The translations under genes were made by a program, and so were the position numbers. Below are positions 45,629 through 53,216 of a DNA stretch of 64,000 nt, one piece after another (within the stretch, counting starts at the first letter, position 1; the number at the start of each line of letters is the position of its first letter). The notes below the pieces were generated by a model that saw nothing but the letters and a program-made list of their open reading frames with translations, made no database searches and was not told where the DNA came from. This DNA comes from Brevundimonas sp. SGAir0440 (lineage in GTDB: Bacteria; Pseudomonadota; Alphaproteobacteria; Caulobacterales; Caulobacteraceae). The stretch is from NCBI RefSeq assembly GCF_005484585.1, contig NZ_CP039435.1, positions 2,480,001 through 2,544,000 on the forward strand, read 5' to 3'.

Positions 45629-46507
45629 TCAGCCCTTGAACAGCGACAGGATGACCTGCGGCGCCTGGTTGGCGATCGACAGGGCCTGAACGCCGAGTTG
45701 CTGCTGGACCTGCAGGGCCTGAAGGCGGGCGCTTTCCTTAGCCAGGTCCGCGTCGACCAGATTGCCGATGCCGGCCTCCAGCGCGTCCGACAGCTTGCCG
45801 ACATAGGTGGTGTGGCGCTCGATCTGCTTGGACTGGGCGCCCAGTTCGGAAAGACGAGAACTCGAGGTTGCGATGGCGTTGTTGATCCGGTTCAGCGCGG
45901 CTTTGGCATCGGACTCAACCAATAAGCTTGGCGCGTCAACAGCGGGCGTAGCCGAAGCGTCGGCCGCAAGCCCCAAGCCTGAAAGTGTCAGGTTTTGACG
46001 CTTCAGCTGGATATTCTCCTGGCCGTCCGCACTGGCGATAAAATTCAAGTCCCCGAGCGGCGCAGGAGGTGTCGCGCCGTCCGTACGCCCTGCGAGAATG
46101 TTCTCACCATCAAAAATGGCGTTGTCTGCAAAAGACTGGATCGACAACAGAAGCGATTGAAACTCCTGGTCATACGATTTGCGAGTCGCATCGCTGGCGC
46201 TCGGGTCCGCCGCTGCGGTCGCCTTCTGCTTCAGCTCCAGAAGAATGTCCGAGATTTGCTCGCCGGCCGCCAGCGACACGTCGGCGATGGACGTCGCGCG
46301 CTTCAGGCTGGTGGTGACAGCTTCGAGCGATCCCCGGTCCGCGCGCTGCCCCTGAGCCACCGCCCAGACCGCGGCGTTGTCGCGCGCGCCCTGAACCTTC
46401 AGCCCCGTGTTCACCCGGCTCTGCGTCGCCGCCAACTGGTCGTTGGTGCGGTTCAGATTCTGCAGGGCGATCATCGCCGAGGTGTTGGTGTGGATGCTGG
46501 TGGTCAT
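45629..46507 (-). CDS. Divergent flagellin (FljJ-like), flagellin D
   Basis: This 292-residue flagellin has conserved N- and C-terminal coiled-coil domains (IALQNLNRTNDQLAATQSRV and GVQALSIANQAPQVILSLF). Compared with flagellins A-C here it lacks the shared middle. It has its own segment with ELKQKATAAADPS and a D1 region, and it is related to the 29-kDa Caulobacter flagellin FljJ. Filament position in Caulobacter depends on flagellin type, so this may form the hook-proximal part of the filament. It lacks the hairpin leader of the other flagellins and instead has a CtrA-GAnTC-CtrA promoter. The ATG is at 46507. Confidence 0.85.
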   Translation of the reverse strand: MTTSIHTNTSAMIALQNLNRTNDQLAATQSRVNTGLKVQGARDNAAVWAVAQGQRADRGSLEAVTTSLKRATSIADVSLAAGEQISDILLELKQKATAAADPSASDATRKSYDQEFQSLLLSIQSFADNAIFDGENILAGRTDGATPPAPLGDLNFIASADGQENIQLKRQNLTLSGLGLAADASATPAVDAPSLLVESDAKAALNRINNAIATSSSRLSELGAQSKQIERHTTYVGKLSDALEAGIGNLVDADLAKESARLQALQVQQQLGVQALSIANQAPQVILSLFKG

Positions 46508-46543
46508 GGCTTCAAGCCCCCGGACGTTCTGTGGGCTACAGCA

Positions 46544-46572
46544 TTAACCATGAGTCGTAATCACATGGTTAA
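46544..46572 (-). promoter_or_regulatory. Paired CtrA sites enclosing a GAnTC methylation site
   Basis: TTAACCATG (46544-46552) and CATGGTTAA (46564-46572) form a perfect inverted pair of CtrA half-sites with an 11-bp spacer. The minus-strand motif TTAA-CCATGTG-ATTA is close to the full TTAA-N7-TTAA consensus. The spacer starts with AGTC, so GAGTC spans 46552-46556; this is a CcrM methylation site. The element lies about 37-65 bp upstream of flagellin D. It would give cell-cycle control of that flagellin. Regulation is inferred, not shown. Confidence 0.75.
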
Positions 46573-46642
46573 CGCGCCGGAAACCATGATTGCGCCGTCC
46601 GGCGAGCCGGCGGCGTTGAAAAGCCAGACCTGTCGCCTGTCG

Positions 46643-46924
46643 TCAGACGGCGGTATCGACCAGACGACCGCCGCGATAGGTCGGGTCGCTGTTCAGCTTT
46701 TCGACATCCTCGCGCGGCAACTGGCGGATCACCTCCCCCGTCACCCGGTCCAGGACCTTGTAGACGAAGCGGTTGTCGCCAACGGCCTCGATGGTGAGGC
46801 GAAAGCGGCTGGCGTCGTGGTTGTCGTTTTTCGCTACCGGCGCGGGCGTCGCCGGCTGCACGGCGATCGGAGCGACGGGAGAAATCTGAGGTACGCTTAC
46901 TGATCTCGCGACATTGTCTGTCAT
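46643..46924 (-). CDS. flaG: FlaG family protein
   Basis: This 93-residue protein has an FlaG core: RFRLTIEAVGDNRFVYKVLD then RVTGEVIRQLPREDVEKL, which matches the consensus phrase TGEVIRQIP. The N-terminal 35 residues are a flexible Pro/Ala-rich tail. FlaG proteins sit in flagellin loci and affect filament length. The start is uncertain: the ATG at 46924 is used, while a GTG at 46948 would add 8 residues; neither has an ideal ribosome-binding site. It lies between flagellin C (after a terminator) and flagellin D. Confidence 0.88.
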   Translation of the reverse strand: MTDNVARSVSVPQISPVAPIAVQPATPAPVAKNDNHDASRFRLTIEAVGDNRFVYKVLDRVTGEVIRQLPREDVEKLNSDPTYRGGRLVDTAV

Positions 46925-46972
46925 GGCTCCACGCGCAGGTCGGCCCACGCCCTCTAGAGAAACAAGCGATCA

Positions 46973-47000
46973 GCCGGAGCGGTCGCAAAACCGCTCCGGC
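46973..47000 (-). terminator. Terminator after flagellin C
   Basis: A strong 10-bp perfect stem GCCGGAGCGG/CCGCTCCGGC (46973-46982 and 46991-47000) with an 8-nt loop lies 8 bp after the flagellin C stop codon (minus strand). It is followed on that strand by a T-containing tract (TGATCGCTTGTTTCT). It separates flagellin C from flaG. Confidence 0.8.
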
Positions 47001-47008
47001 CGCGCGTC

Positions 47009-47830
47009 TTAGCGGAACAGCCCCAGCAAGATCTGGCTGGACGAGTTGGCGATCGACAGCGCCTGCACGCCAAGCTGTTGCTTGGTTTGCAAGGCGGTCA
47101 GTCGGGCGCTTTCCTTGGCCAGGTCGGCGTCCACCAGGTTGCCGACGCCGGTTTCCAACGAGTCTTGCAGCTTATTGACGAAGGTCATCTGACGATCCAG
47201 CGACTTCGACTTCGTGCCGAGATCGGCAAGGGTCGAAGCGAAGCTGCTGATGGCCTTATCGACGTTAGCGGCCGTGCGATCTGCCGTGGTCGCCAGATTG
47301 TAGGCGCCAGCACCCGTCGCTACCGTAGGATCGGTTGCTGCCGTGCTGATTGCTTTCAGGCTGAACTTGCCGCCAGAGGTGTTCGTCGTCACCTCGATTG
47401 CAGCGGCATTGGCGGCAAACAGATTGACGCCGTCGAACTTGGCGCCGGTAAGCGCCGAGCTGATTTCGGACAGGATCGCCGAGAAATCGGCGTTCAGCTT
47501 ATTGGCCGTATCGCTGCCCGCCGTTGCATCCTGAATCGAAACAGCGAGGCTCTTCAGTTCGTTCAGGGCGCTGGTCACCGTATCGCCGGCCGCCAGAGCG
47601 ACGTCGACGATGGATTGACCGCGTTGAAGCGACTGACGCACCGCATCCTGAGCGCCCATTTCTGCACGCTGGGAGGTGGCGATGGCGAAGATGGCGCCGT
47701 TGTCCTTGGCCGAAGAGACTTTCAGGCCGGTGTTTACGCGGCTTTGAGTGGTCTCCAGCGCCTTGTTGGTCGCATTCAGGGTTTGCAGCGCGACGAGGGC
47801 GCCGCCGTTGGTATTGATGCTATTAGCCAT
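47009..47830 (-). CDS. Flagellin C
   Basis: This 273-residue flagellin has an N-terminal D0/D1 region (INTNGGALVALQTLNATNKA) and a C-terminal D0 (LSIANSSSQILLGLFR). The middle region is short, rich in Ala, Thr and Ser, and surface-exposed in filaments. The first 97 residues match those of flagellin B except at residue 39 (Ser against Ala), and the C-terminal 80 are also nearly the same. A GGACAGCCAAA ribosome-binding region precedes the ATG at 47830. A conserved twin-hairpin leader lies upstream. It is one of the structural filament subunits secreted by the flagellar type III system. Confidence 0.95.
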   Translation of the reverse strand: MANSINTNGGALVALQTLNATNKALETTQSRVNTGLKVSSAKDNGAIFAIATSQRAEMGAQDAVRQSLQRGQSIVDVALAAGDTVTSALNELKSLAVSIQDATAGSDTANKLNADFSAILSEISSALTGAKFDGVNLFAANAAAIEVTTNTSGGKFSLKAISTAATDPTVATGAGAYNLATTADRTAANVDKAISSFASTLADLGTKSKSLDRQMTFVNKLQDSLETGVGNLVDADLAKESARLTALQTKQQLGVQALSIANSSSQILLGLFR

Positions 47831-47864
47831 TTTGGCTGTCCTTCTTCATTTCATAAAGGGCCGA

Positions 47865-47894
47865 CGGCGTTTTGCCGAAGGGAGCATTTTACTC
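47865..47894 (-). ncRNA. Twin A-loop hairpins in flagellin C leader
   Basis: Read on the minus strand, GAGTAAAATGCTC (47882-47894) and CGGCAAAACGCCG (47865-47877) are two adjacent 4-bp hairpins with A-rich 5-nt loops. The first has one G-U closing pair. They start about 64 nt and end about 35 nt before the flagellin C start codon. The same pair occurs in the leaders of flagellins A and B. A role as a target for a post-transcriptional regulator such as FlbT/FlaF is inferred. Confidence 0.7.
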
Positions 47895-47909
47895 GGGGAT
47901 AGAAAGATG

Positions 47910-47929
47910 GGCGGGGCCGGAACCCCGCC
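47910..47929 (-). terminator. GC-rich stem-loop after flagellin B
   Basis: A 7-bp stem GGCGGGG/CCCCGCC with a 6-nt loop lies 7 bp after the flagellin B stop codon (minus strand). It is followed by CATCTTTCT. It is probably a terminator or attenuator between flagellins B and C; the T tract is weak, so read-through is possible. Confidence 0.65.
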
Positions 47930-47936
47930 GGTTTTA

Positions 47937-48830
47937 TTAGCGGAACAGGCTCAACAGGATGGAGCTGGACGAGTTGGCGATCGACAGCGCCTGCACGCCA
48001 AGCTGTTGCTTGGTTTGCAGGGCGGTCAGCTTGGCGCTTTCCTTGGCCAGGTCGGCGTCCACCAGATTGCCCACGCCGGATTCCAGCGAGTCTTGCAGCT
48101 TGTTGACAAAGGTCATCTGACGATCCAGCGACTTCGACTTCGTACCGAGGTCGGCAAGGGTCGAAGCGAAGCTGTTGATGGCCGTCTCGACGTTGAACGC
48201 CGTGTAGGCAGCCTTTTTGTCGGCATAGTCGGCATCAGCTGTCCAGGCGCTGCCCGTTACTGCGCCGCCGAACAACAGGCTTGAACCAACCGACGCCACG
48301 GCGGCCGATCCCGTCGCGTCACCTCTCAGGAAGAACTTGCCACTGGACGTGTTCGTCGTGACCGACACGCCAGTTGCGCCTGCTGCGATGGCGTCGAAAA
48401 GATTGACACCATCGAATTTCGCTCCACCCAGAGCCGAGTGAATTTCCTTCACGACAGCTTCGAAGTCCGCGACCAGCTTTTTACCGGTTTCGCTGAAGTC
48501 GGTAGGTGTAGCCGCGTTTCCGCGATCATCTTGAATCGCGACAGCGAGGCTCTTCAGTTCGTTCAGGGCGCTGGTCACCGTATCGCCGGCCGCCAGAGCA
48601 ACGTCGACGATGGATTGACCGCGTTGAAGCGACTGACGCACCGCATCCTGAGCGCCCATTTCTGCACGCTGGGAGGTGGCGATAGCGAAGATGGCGCCAT
48701 TGTCCTTGGCTGAAGCGACTTTCAGGCCGGTGTTTACGCGGCTTTGAGTGGTCTCCAGCGCCTTATTGGTCGCATTCAGGGTTTGCAGCGCGACCAGGGC
48801 GCCGCCGTTGGTATTGATGCTATTAGCCAT
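47937..48830 (-). CDS. Flagellin B
   Basis: This 297-residue flagellin has D0/D1 ends almost identical to flagellin C (N-terminal 97 residues differ only at residue 39) and a longer, different middle region (about residues 98-218) with Ala-, Gly-, Thr- and Ser-rich stretches such as ATGVSVTTNTSSGKF. The middle would be the exposed surface of the filament. The start at 48830 follows the conserved leader with twin hairpins. Upstream are a CtrA-type site and several palindromes, so this is probably an independent transcription unit. It is exported by the flagellar type III system. Confidence 0.95.
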   Translation of the reverse strand: MANSINTNGGALVALQTLNATNKALETTQSRVNTGLKVASAKDNGAIFAIATSQRAEMGAQDAVRQSLQRGQSIVDVALAAGDTVTSALNELKSLAVAIQDDRGNAATPTDFSETGKKLVADFEAVVKEIHSALGGAKFDGVNLFDAIAAGATGVSVTTNTSSGKFFLRGDATGSAAVASVGSSLLFGGAVTGSAWTADADYADKKAAYTAFNVETAINSFASTLADLGTKSKSLDRQMTFVNKLQDSLESGVGNLVDADLAKESAKLTALQTKQQLGVQALSIANSSSSILLSLFR

Positions 48831-48864
48831 TTTGGCTGTCCTTCTTCATTTCGTAAAGGGCCGA

Positions 48865-48894
48865 CGGCGTTTTGCCGAAGGGAGCATTTTGCTC
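48865..48894 (-). ncRNA. Twin A-loop hairpins in flagellin B leader
   Basis: On the minus strand, GAGCAAAATGCTC (48882-48894) and CGGCAAAACGCCG (48865-48877) form two perfect 4-bp stem hairpins with AAAAT and AAAAC loops, separated by CCTT. They end 34 nt before the start codon. The pair is shared with flagellins A and C. The leader is nearly the same as that of flagellin C for about 65 bp. A regulatory role on mRNA is inferred. Confidence 0.72.
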
Positions 48895-48961
48895 GGTCTG
48901 ATCGGAAAATTTTTCCGAGTGTCATGTTTGGACCCTAGGGGTGTCCAAATCGTTGTTCTGC

Positions 48962-48980
48962 ATGGTTAATCGTCGATAAA
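48962..48980 (-). promoter_or_regulatory. CtrA-type site upstream of flagellin B
   Basis: The plus-strand sequence TTAA-TCGTCGA-TAAA (48966-48980) matches the CtrA consensus TTAA-N7-TTAA at 7 of 8 positions. It is joined to ATGG, so TTAACCAT reads on the minus strand. It lies about 135 bp upstream of flagellin B. Between it and the hairpin leader are a 15-bp palindrome CGGAAAATTTTTCCG (48903-48917) and an inverted repeat TTTGGAC/GTCCAAA (48927-48949). Confidence 0.65.
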
Positions 48981-49066
48981 CCTCCTGTGCGGCTCGGCGT
49001 GGTCCGCCGACGTTTCGAAACAAGGCCTGGATTGTTGCGGCACACCCGGCAAAATCGACCCAGCGA

Positions 49067-50002
49067 TCAGTTGCGGAACAGGCTCATCAGGATTTGGCTG
49101 GACGAGTTGGCGATCGACAAGGCCTGAACCCCCAGCTGCTGCTTGGTTTGCAACGCGGTCAGCTTGGCGCTTTCCTTGGCCAGATCGGCATCGACCAGAT
49201 TGCCGATGCCGGTTTCCAAGGAATCTTGAAACTTGTTGACGAACGTCAACTGGCGATCCAGCGACTTCGACTTGGTGCCGAGATCCGCAAGCGTGGACGA
49301 GAAGGACGTTATCGCCGCCTCGACATTGGTCACAGAGTAATCATCGAGAGCAGTGGGCGCAGCGCCGGTCGTCGCGTTCGCCTTGGCCGCCCAAGCCCCC
49401 GAGGCCTGGTTGAAGGTTCCCGCCGCGCCGGTGGTTGCCGCCGTTGAGCCGAAAGCAAGGCCTGCGGCCGCCGCCGTATCCGACGTTGACTTCAGGGTAA
49501 AGGTGTTGTTGGCCGCACCCGTATTGGTCGTGACCTTGAGGTCATTGACCTGTGTCTTGAAAACATTCACGCCGTCGAAGTTGGCGTTGGCCAAGGCAGA
49601 GTGGATTTCCTTCACGATGGCTTCGAAATCGGCGACCAACTTCTTGCCGCTCTCGCCCAAGCCCGTGACGGCGCCGGCGGCGTCGTAGGTTTTCGGAGCG
49701 TCAGCCAAGGCGACGGCGATGCTCTTGAGTTCGTTCAACCCGGCCGTCACTGTATCGCCGGCTGCCAAGGCGACATCGACGATGGACTGGCCACGTTGCA
49801 GCGACTGACGCACAGCGTCTTGAGCGCCCATCTCGGCGCGTTGGCTCGTTGCGATGGCGTAGATCGCGCCGTTGTCCTTGGCCGAGGCCACTTTCAGGCC
49901 CGTCGAGACACGGTTTTGCGTGCGCTCCAACAGAGCGTTGGTCGCATTGAGATTTTGCAGCGCGACAGCGGCGCCGTAGTTCGTATTGATGCTCGTAGCC
50001 AT
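49067..50002 (-). CDS. Flagellin A
   Basis: This 311-residue flagellin has the usual D0/D1 ends (ALQNLNATNALLERTQNRV and LSIANSSSQILMSLF) and a distinct middle region rich in Ala, Thr and Gly, including VTTNTGAANNTFTLKS. It is the first flagellin in transcription order. The ATG at 50002 is used; the extra MNRKAK codons upstream are not favoured because the GGAAAGCC region serves as ribosome-binding site. Upstream are a canonical sigma-54 promoter and the twin hairpin leader. It diverges less from B and C in its ends than in the middle. Secreted by the flagellar type III system. Confidence 0.95.
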   Translation of the reverse strand: MATSINTNYGAAVALQNLNATNALLERTQNRVSTGLKVASAKDNGAIYAIATSQRAEMGAQDAVRQSLQRGQSIVDVALAAGDTVTAGLNELKSIAVALADAPKTYDAAGAVTGLGESGKKLVADFEAIVKEIHSALANANFDGVNVFKTQVNDLKVTTNTGAANNTFTLKSTSDTAAAAGLAFGSTAATTGAAGTFNQASGAWAAKANATTGAAPTALDDYSVTNVEAAITSFSSTLADLGTKSKSLDRQLTFVNKFQDSLETGIGNLVDADLAKESAKLTALQTKQQLGVQALSIANSSSQILMSLFRN

Positions 50003-50034
50003 TTTGGCTTTCCTGTTCACTTCGTGTGATGTCC

Positions 50035-50220: not shown

Positions 50221-50520
50221 TCAGTCGCGGCGTCGCACCTGCGCGTCCTGCATCGCGCGTTCGGCCAACAGGGTCTCGACCGCCAGCCGCCGCGCTCCGT
50301 CGCAGGCCACGATCTGGGCGCCGCGCAGCAGATAGGCTGCGTCCAGATCGCCGGCCGTAGGTTCAGCCGGCAGGATCACCAGCGCGCACGGACGTGTCGC
50401 CGCCTCGGGCAAGATCAGTCGCGCCGGCGCAACCGGCGAGATCGGGGGCGATGCGGCACAGTTCGCCGTCATGGTCGCGCAGGCGATCAGCGCGAAGGGT
50501 CTCCAATGGTTGGTCGGCAT
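50221..50520 (-). CDS. Rz1-like outer-membrane spanin subunit (o-spanin)
   Basis: This 99-residue protein begins MPTNHWRPFALIACATMTANCAAS, a lipoprotein-type signal in which the lipobox-like TANCA gives a Cys at about residue 21. A Pro-rich segment (SPPISPVAPARLILPEAATRP) follows. The gene starts inside the Rz-like gene in another frame and extends 142 bp past its end, as in the overlapping Rz/Rz1 pairs of phages. It would link the outer membrane to Rz to complete lysis. The C-terminal half (about 45 residues) is longer than usual for Rz1. Assignment rests on context. Confidence 0.65.
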   Translation of the reverse strand: MPTNHWRPFALIACATMTANCAASPPISPVAPARLILPEAATRPCALVILPAEPTAGDLDAAYLLRGAQIVACDGARRLAVETLLAERAMQDAQVRRRD

Positions 50521-50842
50521 CGTCGGCGCTCCTGGCCTGGGCGACGGCGGCCGTGGTCACCCGGCGCGCCGCCCCCGTGGTGTGATAATAGTGATCGACG
50601 CGCCGGGCCTGAACCGCCGCGCCTTCGGTCTCGATGCGTCGGGCGTCAGCCTGCGCCGCCGCCACGGCCGCCGCATCTCGCGCCTGAATGCGCGCGGCCT
50701 CCAGGCGCTTGTGCTGCAGGTTCAGCGGATCCCAGCGAAAGCCGAGCCCGCCGAGCAGCACGAATCCCAGTGCCAGCGCTGTCGCAGCGGCCGCGAGCCA
50801 GCCGAGCGGTGTCAGCGCCCGCAGGACCGATCCGGCGCTCAT
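50363..50842 (-). CDS. Rz-like inner-membrane spanin subunit (i-spanin)
   Basis: This 159-residue protein has one N-terminal membrane anchor (WLAAAATALALGFVLLGGLGF) and a long periplasmic helix rich in Ala, Arg and Gln (RLEAARIQARDAAAVAAAQADARRIETE), the layout of Rz proteins. The start is the ATG at 50842, which overlaps the endolysin stop as ATGA. In phages, Rz and Rz1 fuse inner and outer membranes after the cell wall is cut. It has a late CRIAPDLAGC segment with two cysteines, which could stabilise the dimer. Sequence identity to known spanins cannot be judged here. Confidence 0.72.
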   Translation of the reverse strand: MSAGSVLRALTPLGWLAAAATALALGFVLLGGLGFRWDPLNLQHKRLEAARIQARDAAAVAAAQADARRIETEGAAVQARRVDHYYHTTGAARRVTTAAVAQARSADDADQPLETLRADRLRDHDGELCRIAPDLAGCAGATDLARGGDTSVRAGDPAG

Positions 50843-51222
50843 GGAAAGGCCTTTCGATCCAGCTCGAAATGTGGACCGTCCCGCAGCGTCTTCCAGTCGC
50901 CGCCCCAGATCAGCGGCGTCTTCAGATCCAGCGCCGCCGCCTTGAACGCCTTGGCGATCCGGCCGTACAGCGGCCAGTCCCACCGCACCTGGCCTTCGAC
51001 CAGGGCGGCGACGTCGACGGCATGGCCCGTCAGATGGCGCGAGCGCGTCGTGCGGCTGGCCCCGGCCTTGACCAGGGCGGCCTGACGTTCGGCCGTGCGC
51101 AGTCCCTCGGTGACCATAAAGTCCACCGGCGTGCGCGCGATCGCCGCCTCGACCACCGCAATCAGGGCCGGATGCACGCCGACGAGCCGCGTGCGCGACC
51201 GGCTGGACAGACGAAAGCTCAT
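50839..51222 (-). CDS. M15-family peptidoglycan peptidase (endolysin)
   Basis: This 127-residue zinc peptidase of the M15 type (VanY/L-Ala-D-Glu endopeptidase, as in phage T5 and Ply500 endolysins) has zinc-binding motifs SRHLTGHAVDV (His and Asp of SxHxxGxAxD) and the terminal DGPHFEL (His). VTEGLRTAERQAALVKAG is the substrate-side segment. It has no signal peptide, so it needs the holin in the next gene to reach the wall. ATG 51222 overlaps the holin stop and its own stop overlaps the Rz-like start, both as ATGA. Confidence 0.9.
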   Translation of the reverse strand: MSFRLSSRSRTRLVGVHPALIAVVEAAIARTPVDFMVTEGLRTAERQAALVKAGASRTTRSRHLTGHAVDVAALVEGQVRWDWPLYGRIAKAFKAAALDLKTPLIWGGDWKTLRDGPHFELDRKAFP

Positions 51223-51488
51223 GGTCGGCCTCCGCTGATCCGCAGCCGCGCTGTGGCGATCGGGGTGATCAACTGCTGAGCGGTCGGCGCCACCAGATAG
51301 AGCGCCAGGATCAAGGCCAACAGGCCCATCAGCCCGTCCGTGATCCTGGGCAGCATCTCCGGCGGCATTCGGCCGACCGTACGCATCAACAGCACCCACA
51401 GCCCCGCGCTAACAGCGAAGACGTAGAGGCGACGAAACAGCCACCGCCCCTCCGCCAAGGGGATCGCACCCTGTTTGTGTCGGGTCAT
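51219..51488 (-). CDS. Holin-like small membrane protein
   Basis: This 89-residue protein has two predicted membrane segments (LYVFAVSAGLWVLLMRTV and LMGLLALILALYLVAPTA), a basic N-terminus (MTRHKQ) and a basic C-terminus (RLRISGG). Size, topology and position just before an endolysin gene indicate a holin that forms membrane holes to release the endolysin. Sequence alone does not identify the holin family. Start and stop overlap the genes on both sides as ATGA. Confidence 0.72.
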   Translation of the reverse strand: MTRHKQGAIPLAEGRWLFRRLYVFAVSAGLWVLLMRTVGRMPPEMLPRITDGLMGLLALILALYLVAPTAQQLITPIATARLRISGGRP

Positions 51489-51640
51489 CGTTCGTCCTCC
51501 TCGTCATAGGTTTCGACGGCGCAGCGGCCGTCCCAGCCGGACTGGGCGCGCCATTCCCCGTCGCTGAGGCTGTCGGGCGCTTCCCACGCCTCGGCCTCCA
51601 GCACCTCGACCGGCTCGGCCGGATGTCCGCGCCGGCTCAT
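51485..51640 (-). CDS. Small acidic protein of the lysis cassette
   Basis: This 51-residue protein (starts MSRRGHPAEPVEVLEAEAWE, ends YDEEDER) is very acidic, with a short basic N-terminus, Trp-rich middle and one Cys (RCAVE). Its ATG at 51640 overlaps the fibre gene stop and its stop overlaps the holin start, both as ATGA, which strongly supports that it is translated. It could be a tail-fibre chaperone or a small regulator of lysis. I cannot tell. It is too short to match any family by eye. Confidence 0.65.
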   Translation of the reverse strand: MSRRGHPAEPVEVLEAEAWEAPDSLSDGEWRAQSGWDGRCAVETYDEEDER

Positions 51641-53073
51641 CCGACGACCGTGATCATAACTGCGCCTGAAGCGCCCGAACCGCCCTGGCCGCCGAAGGTC
51701 AGGCCCGCGCCGCCTCCGCCGCCCCCGGCCCCGAACAGCGCGCCTGAGCCGCCGGGACCGCCCGCTCCGCTTGCTGATGCGTCGCCGCCCCCGCCGCCGC
51801 CGCCGACGATCGACAACAGCGGCTTGGGCGAGGCCTGTCCCGCAGCGCCCGCGACGCCGCCGGCCGCGCGAAGGCCTGACCAGCCGCCCACACCGCCCGC
51901 GCCTCCGGCATAGGCGACATCCGCCGCGCTCAGACCGCCGCCCGCCCCGCCTCCGCCCGGTCCGTGCGAGCAAAGGGTTTCTGCGCCCGTCGCTGCCGTT
52001 GCGCTTGTCGAAGAGCTGCCGCCGGAGTTGGCGAGCCGTTGGCCGATACCGCCTGCTCCACCGACGCCAGAGCCGCCTGCGGTCCCGCCCGTCGCGCGTA
52101 ACAGGACCATGTCGCCTGTCGCCACCTCACTATCGCCGCCCGAAACGCCGCTGATCCCGCCGGCGCCGACCTTGACCGACAGGACGCCGTCCAGATCGTC
52201 CGCCGACCATCGCGCGAGGCTCAGCCCGCCGGCGCCGCCTCCGCCACCGCCGAGGCGTGCGGCGCCAGACGGACCCGTCAGCCCTTCGCCCCCGCCGCCG
52301 CCGCCGCCCACGCAGGTCGCCTCGACCCAGCACGCCCAGGCCGGCAGGGCATAGTCGTCGTCGCTGGTGAACAGCGTCGTCTCGCGCCGGACCGCCCCCT
52401 GATCGAAGGCGGCACGCCCCGTCTCGCGATCCACGCGCCACACCGATCGCCAAGTTCCGGCGTCGTCGCAGGCCTTGAGGGTCAGGTCGTCATCGCCGAT
52501 CAGACCCAGCTCTGCGCGGGCCGCGTATCCGCTCTGAAACAGCAGCGACAGGACATCGCCCGCCGTCGTCTTGTTCAGCGTCAGGCGCAGGTCGCCATCA
52601 CCGCCCTCCTCCACGCTGCGTGCCGTGAACAGGGCGGCGTTGATCTTGGCCGCAAGGGGATTGGCGTCGTCGGCGGTCGTCCCGATAGCCAGCCGCGTCA
52701 GGCCCTGCACCTCGCCCAGTCTCTGCGCCAGCGCGACCCAGCCCTCATCGGCCCGTACCACCACGACGCCTTCGTCCAGAACGCAGGCGATCATGCCGTC
52801 CGGCGTCGTCACGACTGTCCAGCCGCCGCCCTCGAACCGCATCAGGGCGCCGGCCGCCCGCCCGGCCCAGGCTGCGCCTTCGGCCTCTGGCGGCAGGATA
52901 TAAAGATCGCCGTCCGACGCATCGTCCGGCTGGATCGCCGTCGTGCGACTGACCACCGCCGTCTGCAACAGGGCGTCCAGCCGGGTCAGGGCCGTATTCA
53001 GGGTCACATGCTTCTGCATCTGCCCCGCCGCCAGATAGGGCAGGTTCAGACGCGCGCTGAAATCGTCGCTCAT
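51637..53073 (-). CDS. DUF2793 protein with glycine-rich adhesin-like domain (tail fibre candidate)
   Basis: This 478-residue protein begins with the DUF2793 domain (SARLNLPYLAAGQMQKHVTL, about residues 5-115), found in phage and gene-transfer-agent clusters of Alphaproteobacteria. A middle part (about 140-250) looks like a beta-rich linker. Residues about 255-473 are a run of Gly with short spaced Ser/Ala/Thr turns (many GGGGGGG, GGSGASG), ending GAVMITVVG. This composition resembles polyglycine-II receptor-binding domains of phage adhesins. A GGAGAG ribosome-binding site precedes the ATG at 53073. The Gly codons use many GGC/GGT, consistent with the local GC content. Confidence 0.8.
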   Translation of the reverse strand: MSDDFSARLNLPYLAAGQMQKHVTLNTALTRLDALLQTAVVSRTTAIQPDDASDGDLYILPPEAEGAAWAGRAAGALMRFEGGGWTVVTTPDGMIACVLDEGVVVVRADEGWVALAQRLGEVQGLTRLAIGTTADDANPLAAKINAALFTARSVEEGGDGDLRLTLNKTTAGDVLSLLFQSGYAARAELGLIGDDDLTLKACDDAGTWRSVWRVDRETGRAAFDQGAVRRETTLFTSDDDYALPAWACWVEATCVGGGGGGGEGLTGPSGAARLGGGGGGAGGLSLARWSADDLDGVLSVKVGAGGISGVSGGDSEVATGDMVLLRATGGTAGGSGVGGAGGIGQRLANSGGSSSTSATAATGAETLCSHGPGGGGAGGGLSAADVAYAGGAGGVGGWSGLRAAGGVAGAAGQASPKPLLSIVGGGGGGGDASASGAGGPGGSGALFGAGGGGGGAGLTFGGQGGSGASGAVMITVVG

Positions 53074-53216
53074 TCTTCTCTCCGTTGTCGTGGAGATCAG
53101 TCTGCGCGCAGCCCTTCCTCAGGCCGGAAGACGGGCGGTCACTTGGGTCAGGTCCTTGATTTCAGGCAGATTTGTTGCGGAGAAAACGATGGCTAGGCCG
53201 CCTCAGCCAGCGTATC

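Follow-up and report, generated by a model that had tools for sequence, protein, structure and literature searches.

In Brevundimonas sp. SGAir0440 we find a compact operon of six genes that likely encodes, as a late and distal unit, the fibre and lysis functions of a gene transfer agent (GTA) of this genus, as judged from its sequence and that of its relatives. The stretch of DNA analysed here, referred to as the window, comprises 64,000 nucleotides (positions 2480001-2544000) of the single-contig genome of 3.15 Mb (G000:C1). The operon occupies positions 50221-53073 of the window on the minus strand. Six intact open reading frames (ORFs) follow each other in the order DUF2793 fibre, 51-residue ORF, holin, M15 endolysin, Rz and Rz1. 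The junctions fibre/51-residue ORF, 51-residue ORF/holin, holin/endolysin and endolysin/Rz are ATGA overlaps of stop and start codon, and the start of Rz1 is nested within Rz in another frame, with Rz1 extending beyond the end of Rz. An earlier note, made from the letters of the stretch alone, had described this six-gene cassette and had suggested a remote lysis and adhesin unit of a Caulobacterales GTA. All six ORFs proved to be open, and the suggestion is supported by a GTA cluster elsewhere in the genome, by the family of the fibre, by synteny and by a common promoter. The elements are listed in window positions.

53149..53161, minus strand: IHF-like element AATCAAGGACCTG of the operon promoter; the same element with the same 24-nt spacing is found at the GTA cluster promoter
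53116..53130, minus strand: 15-mer CTTCCGGCCTGAGGA, element of the -35 region; also at G000:C1:1152474 upstream of the GTA cluster
53096..53104, minus strand: CAGACTGAT, putative -10 region; an upstream alignment of 40 genomes shows it to be conserved in the genus, the assignment as -10 being interpretive
51637..53073, minus strand: DUF2793 tail fibre, 478 aa, with a Gly-rich C-terminal half (Pfam DUF2793 4e-21, Gly_rich_2 2.6e-7)
51485..51640, minus strand: acidic 51-aa ORF between fibre and holin; ATGA overlap at each side, net charge -10, no transmembrane segment
51219..51488, minus strand: holin-like protein, 89 aa, two hydrophobic segments; called by topology, and homologous to the gene in the holin position of P2-like viral contigs
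50839..51222, minus strand: M15 peptidase endolysin, 127 aa (Peptidase_M15_4 4e-12; phage endolysin phrog_465 6e-58)
50363..50842, minus strand: Rz-like inner-membrane spanin, 159 aa, one N-terminal transmembrane segment; a homologue follows the lysin in P2-like phages
50221..50520, minus strand: Rz1-like outer-membrane lipoprotein spanin, 99 aa, signal peptide with Cys; weak match to phrog_456 Rz-like spanin (E=0.016)

A possible course of events can be drawn from this arrangement. The activators GafY and GafZ together with IHF would switch on the GTA cluster and, via a promoter of like design, the cassette operon. The fibre would be fitted to the tail of the particle and serve its attachment. 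The holin would then permeabilise the inner membrane, the M15 endolysin would cut the cross-links of the peptidoglycan, and Rz and Rz1 would disrupt the outer membrane, so that the particles could be released. The lysis genes would have come from a P2-like phage, and the same slot elsewhere in the Caulobacteraceae holds other lysis genes or none. The activity ascribed to each of these proteins, and its use in GTA release, is deduced from sequence features and homology.

The fibre gene, the distant GTA cluster and their promoters

The fibre gene of the cassette is the one DUF2793 gene of the genome. DUF2793 is the tail fibre of the GTA of Rhodobacter capsulatus (RcGTA) and co-evolves with GTA genes (PMC10883770), and the homologue ccna_02456 of Caulobacter crescentus is induced by GafYZ (PMC9632790). 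This domain gives the distal gene homology to a GTA component already known. To relate the fibre to the GTA we searched 199 genomes of Caulobacteraceae (designated by G-numbers, the own genome being G000), including 40 of Brevundimonas, with the GTA capsid of the own genome and for DUF2793; capsid matches of low identity were removed by hand. Each of the 40 Brevundimonas genomes contains one DUF2793 gene. Outside Brevundimonas, 56 genomes possess both DUF2793 and the capsid, one the capsid only, ten DUF2793 only and 92 neither. DUF2793 is therefore present in 56 of the 57 capsid-bearing genomes outside the genus (Fisher p 2.6e-31, which is not to be taken literally since the genomes are related).

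The genome search proposed in the earlier note revealed an RcGTA-type cluster at about 1.153-1.172 Mb (G000:C1:1152750-1171863), 1.36 Mb from the cassette. It contains terminase (terL), portal, capsid, tail tube, DUF2460, Gp84 N, NlpC/P60 and GTA_TIM genes, and the genes from portal to TIM are intact in most other Brevundimonas. The single PF05065 capsid of the whole genome lies in this cluster, 1.37 Mb from the cassette (a P2-type capsid was not searched for there). We also observed one SGNH-hydrolase-like and one acyltransferase-like gene inside the cluster between terL and portal (G000:C1:1154247-1156765), which occur in G131 and G192 as well.

The upstream regions of the fibre gene and of the GTA cluster share one design, namely an IHF-like site, 24 nt, and, at the -35 region, a GCCTGAG element. 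The genome contains two copies of the 15-mer CTTCCGGCCTGAGGA and no more, one at each of these promoters, while the estimated chance of a common 15-mer between two 200-nt regions of such composition is about 2e-4. The composite pattern of the IHF-like and -35-like elements likewise has exactly two perfect matches genome-wide, both at these promoters, and none with one mismatch. Among the 40 Brevundimonas genomes it gave 15 perfect matches: eight at fibre promoters, six at GTA promoters (one of them, on a separate contig, judged from sequence alone) and one elsewhere. A less circular approach scanned the fibre loci with a matrix derived from 13 GTA promoters, to which the genome under test and those closely related to it did not contribute. 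Now the fibre promoter ranked first of approximately 24,000 positions in 18 out of 40 genomes and among the top five in 27 out of 40, where about 0.2 first ranks are expected by chance. A scan with the standard sigma-70 consensus found no promoter.

The genes for the putative regulators, gafY (weak Bac_DnaA_C match) and gafZ (DUF6456, 1.8e-44), adjoin each other in the own genome and are intact. DUF6456 was found in all 19 Brevundimonas genomes tested, including those without a GTA. In C. crescentus, IHF co-occupies 18 of 20 GafY sites (PMC11150451). GafY or IHF may bind and act at the common promoter element, and the cassette is probably activated along with the remote GTA cluster. A third match to the GTA promoter element (CTTCTTCCGGCCTGGG) was observed, with two mismatches, at G000:C1:2878486-2878529 upstream of a gene for a protein of 250 aa, which is a candidate for a further member of the GafY regulon.

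Conservation and origin of the lysis genes

Window genes were placed onto 12-kb stretches of the relatives. The usual order in Brevundimonas is flagellins, Rz1/Rz, lysin, holin, fibre, DUF4112, an endonuclease-like gene, CCA-adding enzyme and NUDIX. In 30 out of 40 genomes fibre and lysin are directly linked at this same locus, and in five further ones (G097, G102, G147, G174, G192) a contig end falls within the fibre gene and splits the cassette. Identical gene order at an identical locus across the genus places the cassette beyond a chance arrangement. Nearly every Brevundimonas genome encodes the endolysin, at 68-95% identity, and few other members of the family do; near-identical endolysins occur in species such as B. 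vesicularis and B. intermedia, and the gene is also present in B. diminuta and other named species. Loss or a frameshift in most relatives, which according to the earlier note would have spoken against a conserved unit, was not seen. Only few genomes are affected: G186 and G198 have lost the lysin by deletion, G151 has a frameshift in it, the fibre is found at another site without the cassette in G083, G092 and G171, and Rz/Rz1 were not detected in G058, G073, G117 and G131. A recognisable homologue of the 51-aa ORF is present at approximately half of the syntenic loci.

The cassette is under purifying selection. Between close pairs the ratio of nonsynonymous to synonymous substitution rates (dN/dS) amounts to 0.06-0.27 for the lysin, 0.06-0.28 for the holin and 0.17-0.28 for the fibre, similar to the GTA capsid. 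Pairwise protein distances of the flanking housekeeping genes were compared with those of lysin, holin, fibre and capsid, and the two sets are correlated (Mantel r 0.6-0.8), a pattern that vertical descent would produce. The catalytic motif of the predicted endolysin appears intact, with the residues SxHxxGxAxD and PHFE invariant in the 32 sequences compared, and the lipobox-like motif [TI][AST][SNA]C of Rz1 is kept in about 30 relatives and in the phage copies. By topology and homology, a small transmembrane holin and an Rz/Rz1 pair with a lipoprotein signal would complete a lysis cassette. Holin, Rz and Rz1 gave no significant family match, and the cassette proteins that were scanned with PADLOC gave no match.

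A hint towards the origin of the lysis block arises from two viral contigs (L176, L177), in which holin, M15 lysin (82 and 76% identity), Rz and Rz1 are found in the same order as in the cassette. In L177 the block is located among genes of the P2 family (GPO, P2 capsid, small terminase, GPL, tail X, GpR, tail S, baseplate J, tail I), and L176 has a GPO homologue. No DUF2793 match was found near the lysis block in the P2-like contigs examined. Because the series holin, M15, Rz, Rz1 also occurs in P2-family phages, the block was probably captured from such a phage and came to lie downstream of the GTA fibre. Some Brevundimonas possess a second, more divergent lysin copy at another site. G007 contains a lysin of 62% identity and neither fibre nor capsid; it was set aside as a probable prophage.

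In other genera the place behind the fibre gene is filled differently. A GH24 lysozyme follows it in G161 (ATGA overlap with the fibre; Pfam 5e-32), G150 and G176, GH24 lysozyme and a spanin-like gene in G011, and a GH24 homologue with a small transmembrane protein in G028. In several further genomes a small transmembrane protein is present at this place; Pfam did not confirm these proteins as holins. We further observed that G068, G124 and G023 (loci L126, L138, L119) encode a protein of 160-190 aa with C-terminal hydrophobic segments behind the fibre, which may be a GTA-associated holin, although Pfam lends this no support. In most genomes examined of the genus expected to contain C. crescentus (g22), none of the query lysis proteins was found behind the fibre. 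G161, G150 and G176 belong to this genus (loci L137, L170, L171), and two of these three lack GTA capsid and GTA_TIM despite fibre and GH24 lysozyme. Elsewhere the fibre gene adjoins unrelated genes, e.g. murA-like or carboxylase-like ones. The proximity of fibre and lysis genes may be ancestral, with the enzyme exchanged later, since GTA-like prophages of Methylobacterium nodulans also pair fibre and lysozyme homologues.

A further feature of the locus, found by a consensus scan alone, lies where the upstream DUF4112 gene ends.

53190..53209, minus strand: terminator-like hairpin, perhaps insulating the operon

On the other side of the operon, tandem flagellin genes adjoin it at window positions 45629-50005, and their copy number differs between Brevundimonas loci.

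Weighing of alternative explanations

Several observations weigh against an assignment of the cassette to the GTA. The terL gene of the own genome contains a nonsense codon (G000:C1:1153158-1153160) where most relatives have Trp, and its GTA_TIM gene possesses a frameshift and a stop (about 1169880-1170798). Because of these lesions the GTA of this strain is probably defunct, unless they represent assembly errors; an intact head-tail cluster was not found in the own genome. As the cluster is apparently inactivated, the function of the cassette was deduced from the genus. There the GTA is decayed or lacks the capsid in approximately 12 of 40 genomes (G000, G073, G107, G135, G139, G143, G151, G155, G159, G180, G186, G189), of which only G151 and G186 have a damaged lysis part. 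Conversely, G198, G083, G092 and G171 have GTA structural genes and no lysis cassette. Strict co-loss of GTA and cassette was considered and not found when the states of the 40 genomes were compared; with few damaged cassettes among the decayed genomes and four GTA genomes without the cassette, its retention is only loosely coupled to the GTA. Either the GTA losses are recent, gafZ being kept too, or the operon does more than serve the GTA. Regarding the promoters, the composite pattern was derived by comparing both of them and most of its perfect matches come from the defining clade, and the matrix misses the site in several genomes (G073, G112, G117, G143). Finally, holin, Rz and Rz1 were assigned from position, topology and homology to the P2-like block.

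An alternative is an adhesin and lysis operon under GafY control that has left the service of the GTA, or has other tasks besides it, and that would set free DNA, nutrients or fibres by programmed lysis. Cassette and gafZ persist with a broken or capsid-less GTA in the own genome and in G135, G143, G155, G159 and G180, and the lysin has a dN/dS of 0.13 between G073 and G143, both with a failed GTA. However, this retention may just reflect recent GTA loss, the regulators being kept as well, and DUF2793 strongly tracks the capsid in the wider family; we regard such an independent operon as unlikely. The remnant of a P2-like or other prophage, in which fibre and lysis block were left by chance without a role for the GTA, is in agreement with the homology of the lysis block to P2-family contigs and with the second, more distant lysin copy in some Brevundimonas. 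The earlier note had held a prophage module to be equally plausible, and a captured phage module is indeed partly true as the lysis half goes back to a P2-like phage. Yet a prophage at the locus was not found: the window has no integrase match, no phage structural gene adjoins the cassette, no convincing att-like repeats flank it, and a full prophage at this place was not seen in the relatives. This agrees with the earlier statement that capsid, integrase and attachment repeats are missing nearby. The P2-like contigs without DUF2793, the fixed locus with purifying selection and housekeeping-like distances, and the promoter common to cassette and GTA cluster also argue against a remnant, and we hold it to be quite improbable.

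The earlier note had also pointed out the flagellin genes. Their array adjoins the cassette in most Brevundimonas loci, and a fibre using or decorating the flagellum could be imagined. The neighbourhood is conserved within the genus only, and the fibre gene of other genera is located elsewhere, beside unrelated genes; moreover the promoter groups with that of the GTA cluster, and Rz1 and the flagellin gene are about 200 nt apart. A functional coupling to the flagellins therefore seems scarcely credible. The distal GTA fibre and lysis operon remains the explanation that we favor. One extension of it, which we put forward as a rather doubtful possibility, is that the place behind the fibre represents a plug-in site for phage lysis modules that were repeatedly exchanged among lineages of Caulobacteraceae: M15, holin and spanins in Brevundimonas, GH24 in others, and no such module in C. 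crescentus, where an immune-type system was recruited in its stead. After the death of the GTA the GafY-controlled operon would persist as an independent device for programmed lysis.

Comparison with known systems

The exit of GTAs from the cell in Caulobacterales is of interest as the best-studied species uses an immunity-derived system that most GTA-bearing relatives lack. The Brevundimonas operon would provide a concrete phage-type alternative, with fibre and lysis genes in one transcription unit and apparently co-regulated with the GTA, and might represent an example of a domesticated particle system that has taken lysis genes of phages into its service. Its promoter signature could be used to find further distal GTA genes. 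Our literature search, with subscription journals mostly outside its coverage, found no paper linking Brevundimonas, gene transfer agent and endolysin.

The P2-family lysis cassette of L176 and L177 resembles the operon in its order of holin, M15 endolysin, Rz and Rz1, with homology throughout. The phage copy is located between tail X and tail completion genes, whereas the Brevundimonas copy follows a GTA fibre gene with no other phage genes. In the RcGTA-like prophages of M. nodulans ORS 2060, homologues of rcc00171 and rcc00555 adjoin the structural cluster (PMC11409702). These are prophage segments with lysozyme (rcc00555) homologues, while in Brevundimonas fibre and lysis genes lie far from the cluster and encode an enzyme of the M15 type.

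In R. capsulatus itself the fibre gene and the lysis genes, all of them late, are found at separate loci (PMC9638019), and the late genes of RcGTA are controlled with GafA (PMC9638019, PMC3423380). A distal DUF2793 fibre (rcc00171) and distal lysis genes (rcc00555/rcc00556) serving a head-tail cluster of the same type are in agreement with the arrangement reported here. In contrast to the separate loci of RcGTA, Brevundimonas has a single overlapping operon with an M15 enzyme, two spanins and a P2-like lysis block. The GTA of C. crescentus belongs to the same bacterial family and shares the cluster type and a DUF2793 fibre outside the cluster (ccna_02456); its reported regulation by GafYZ and IHF would be common to both (PMC9632790, PMC11150451). 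Homologues of holin and endolysin are missing from C. crescentus, and lysis proceeds via the CARD-NLR-like LypABC; of 11 Caulobacter species with a GTA only 4 possess it (PMC13236601). Where C. crescentus thus relies on LypABC, the Brevundimonas operon contains a predicted holin, endolysin and spanins of the phage type.

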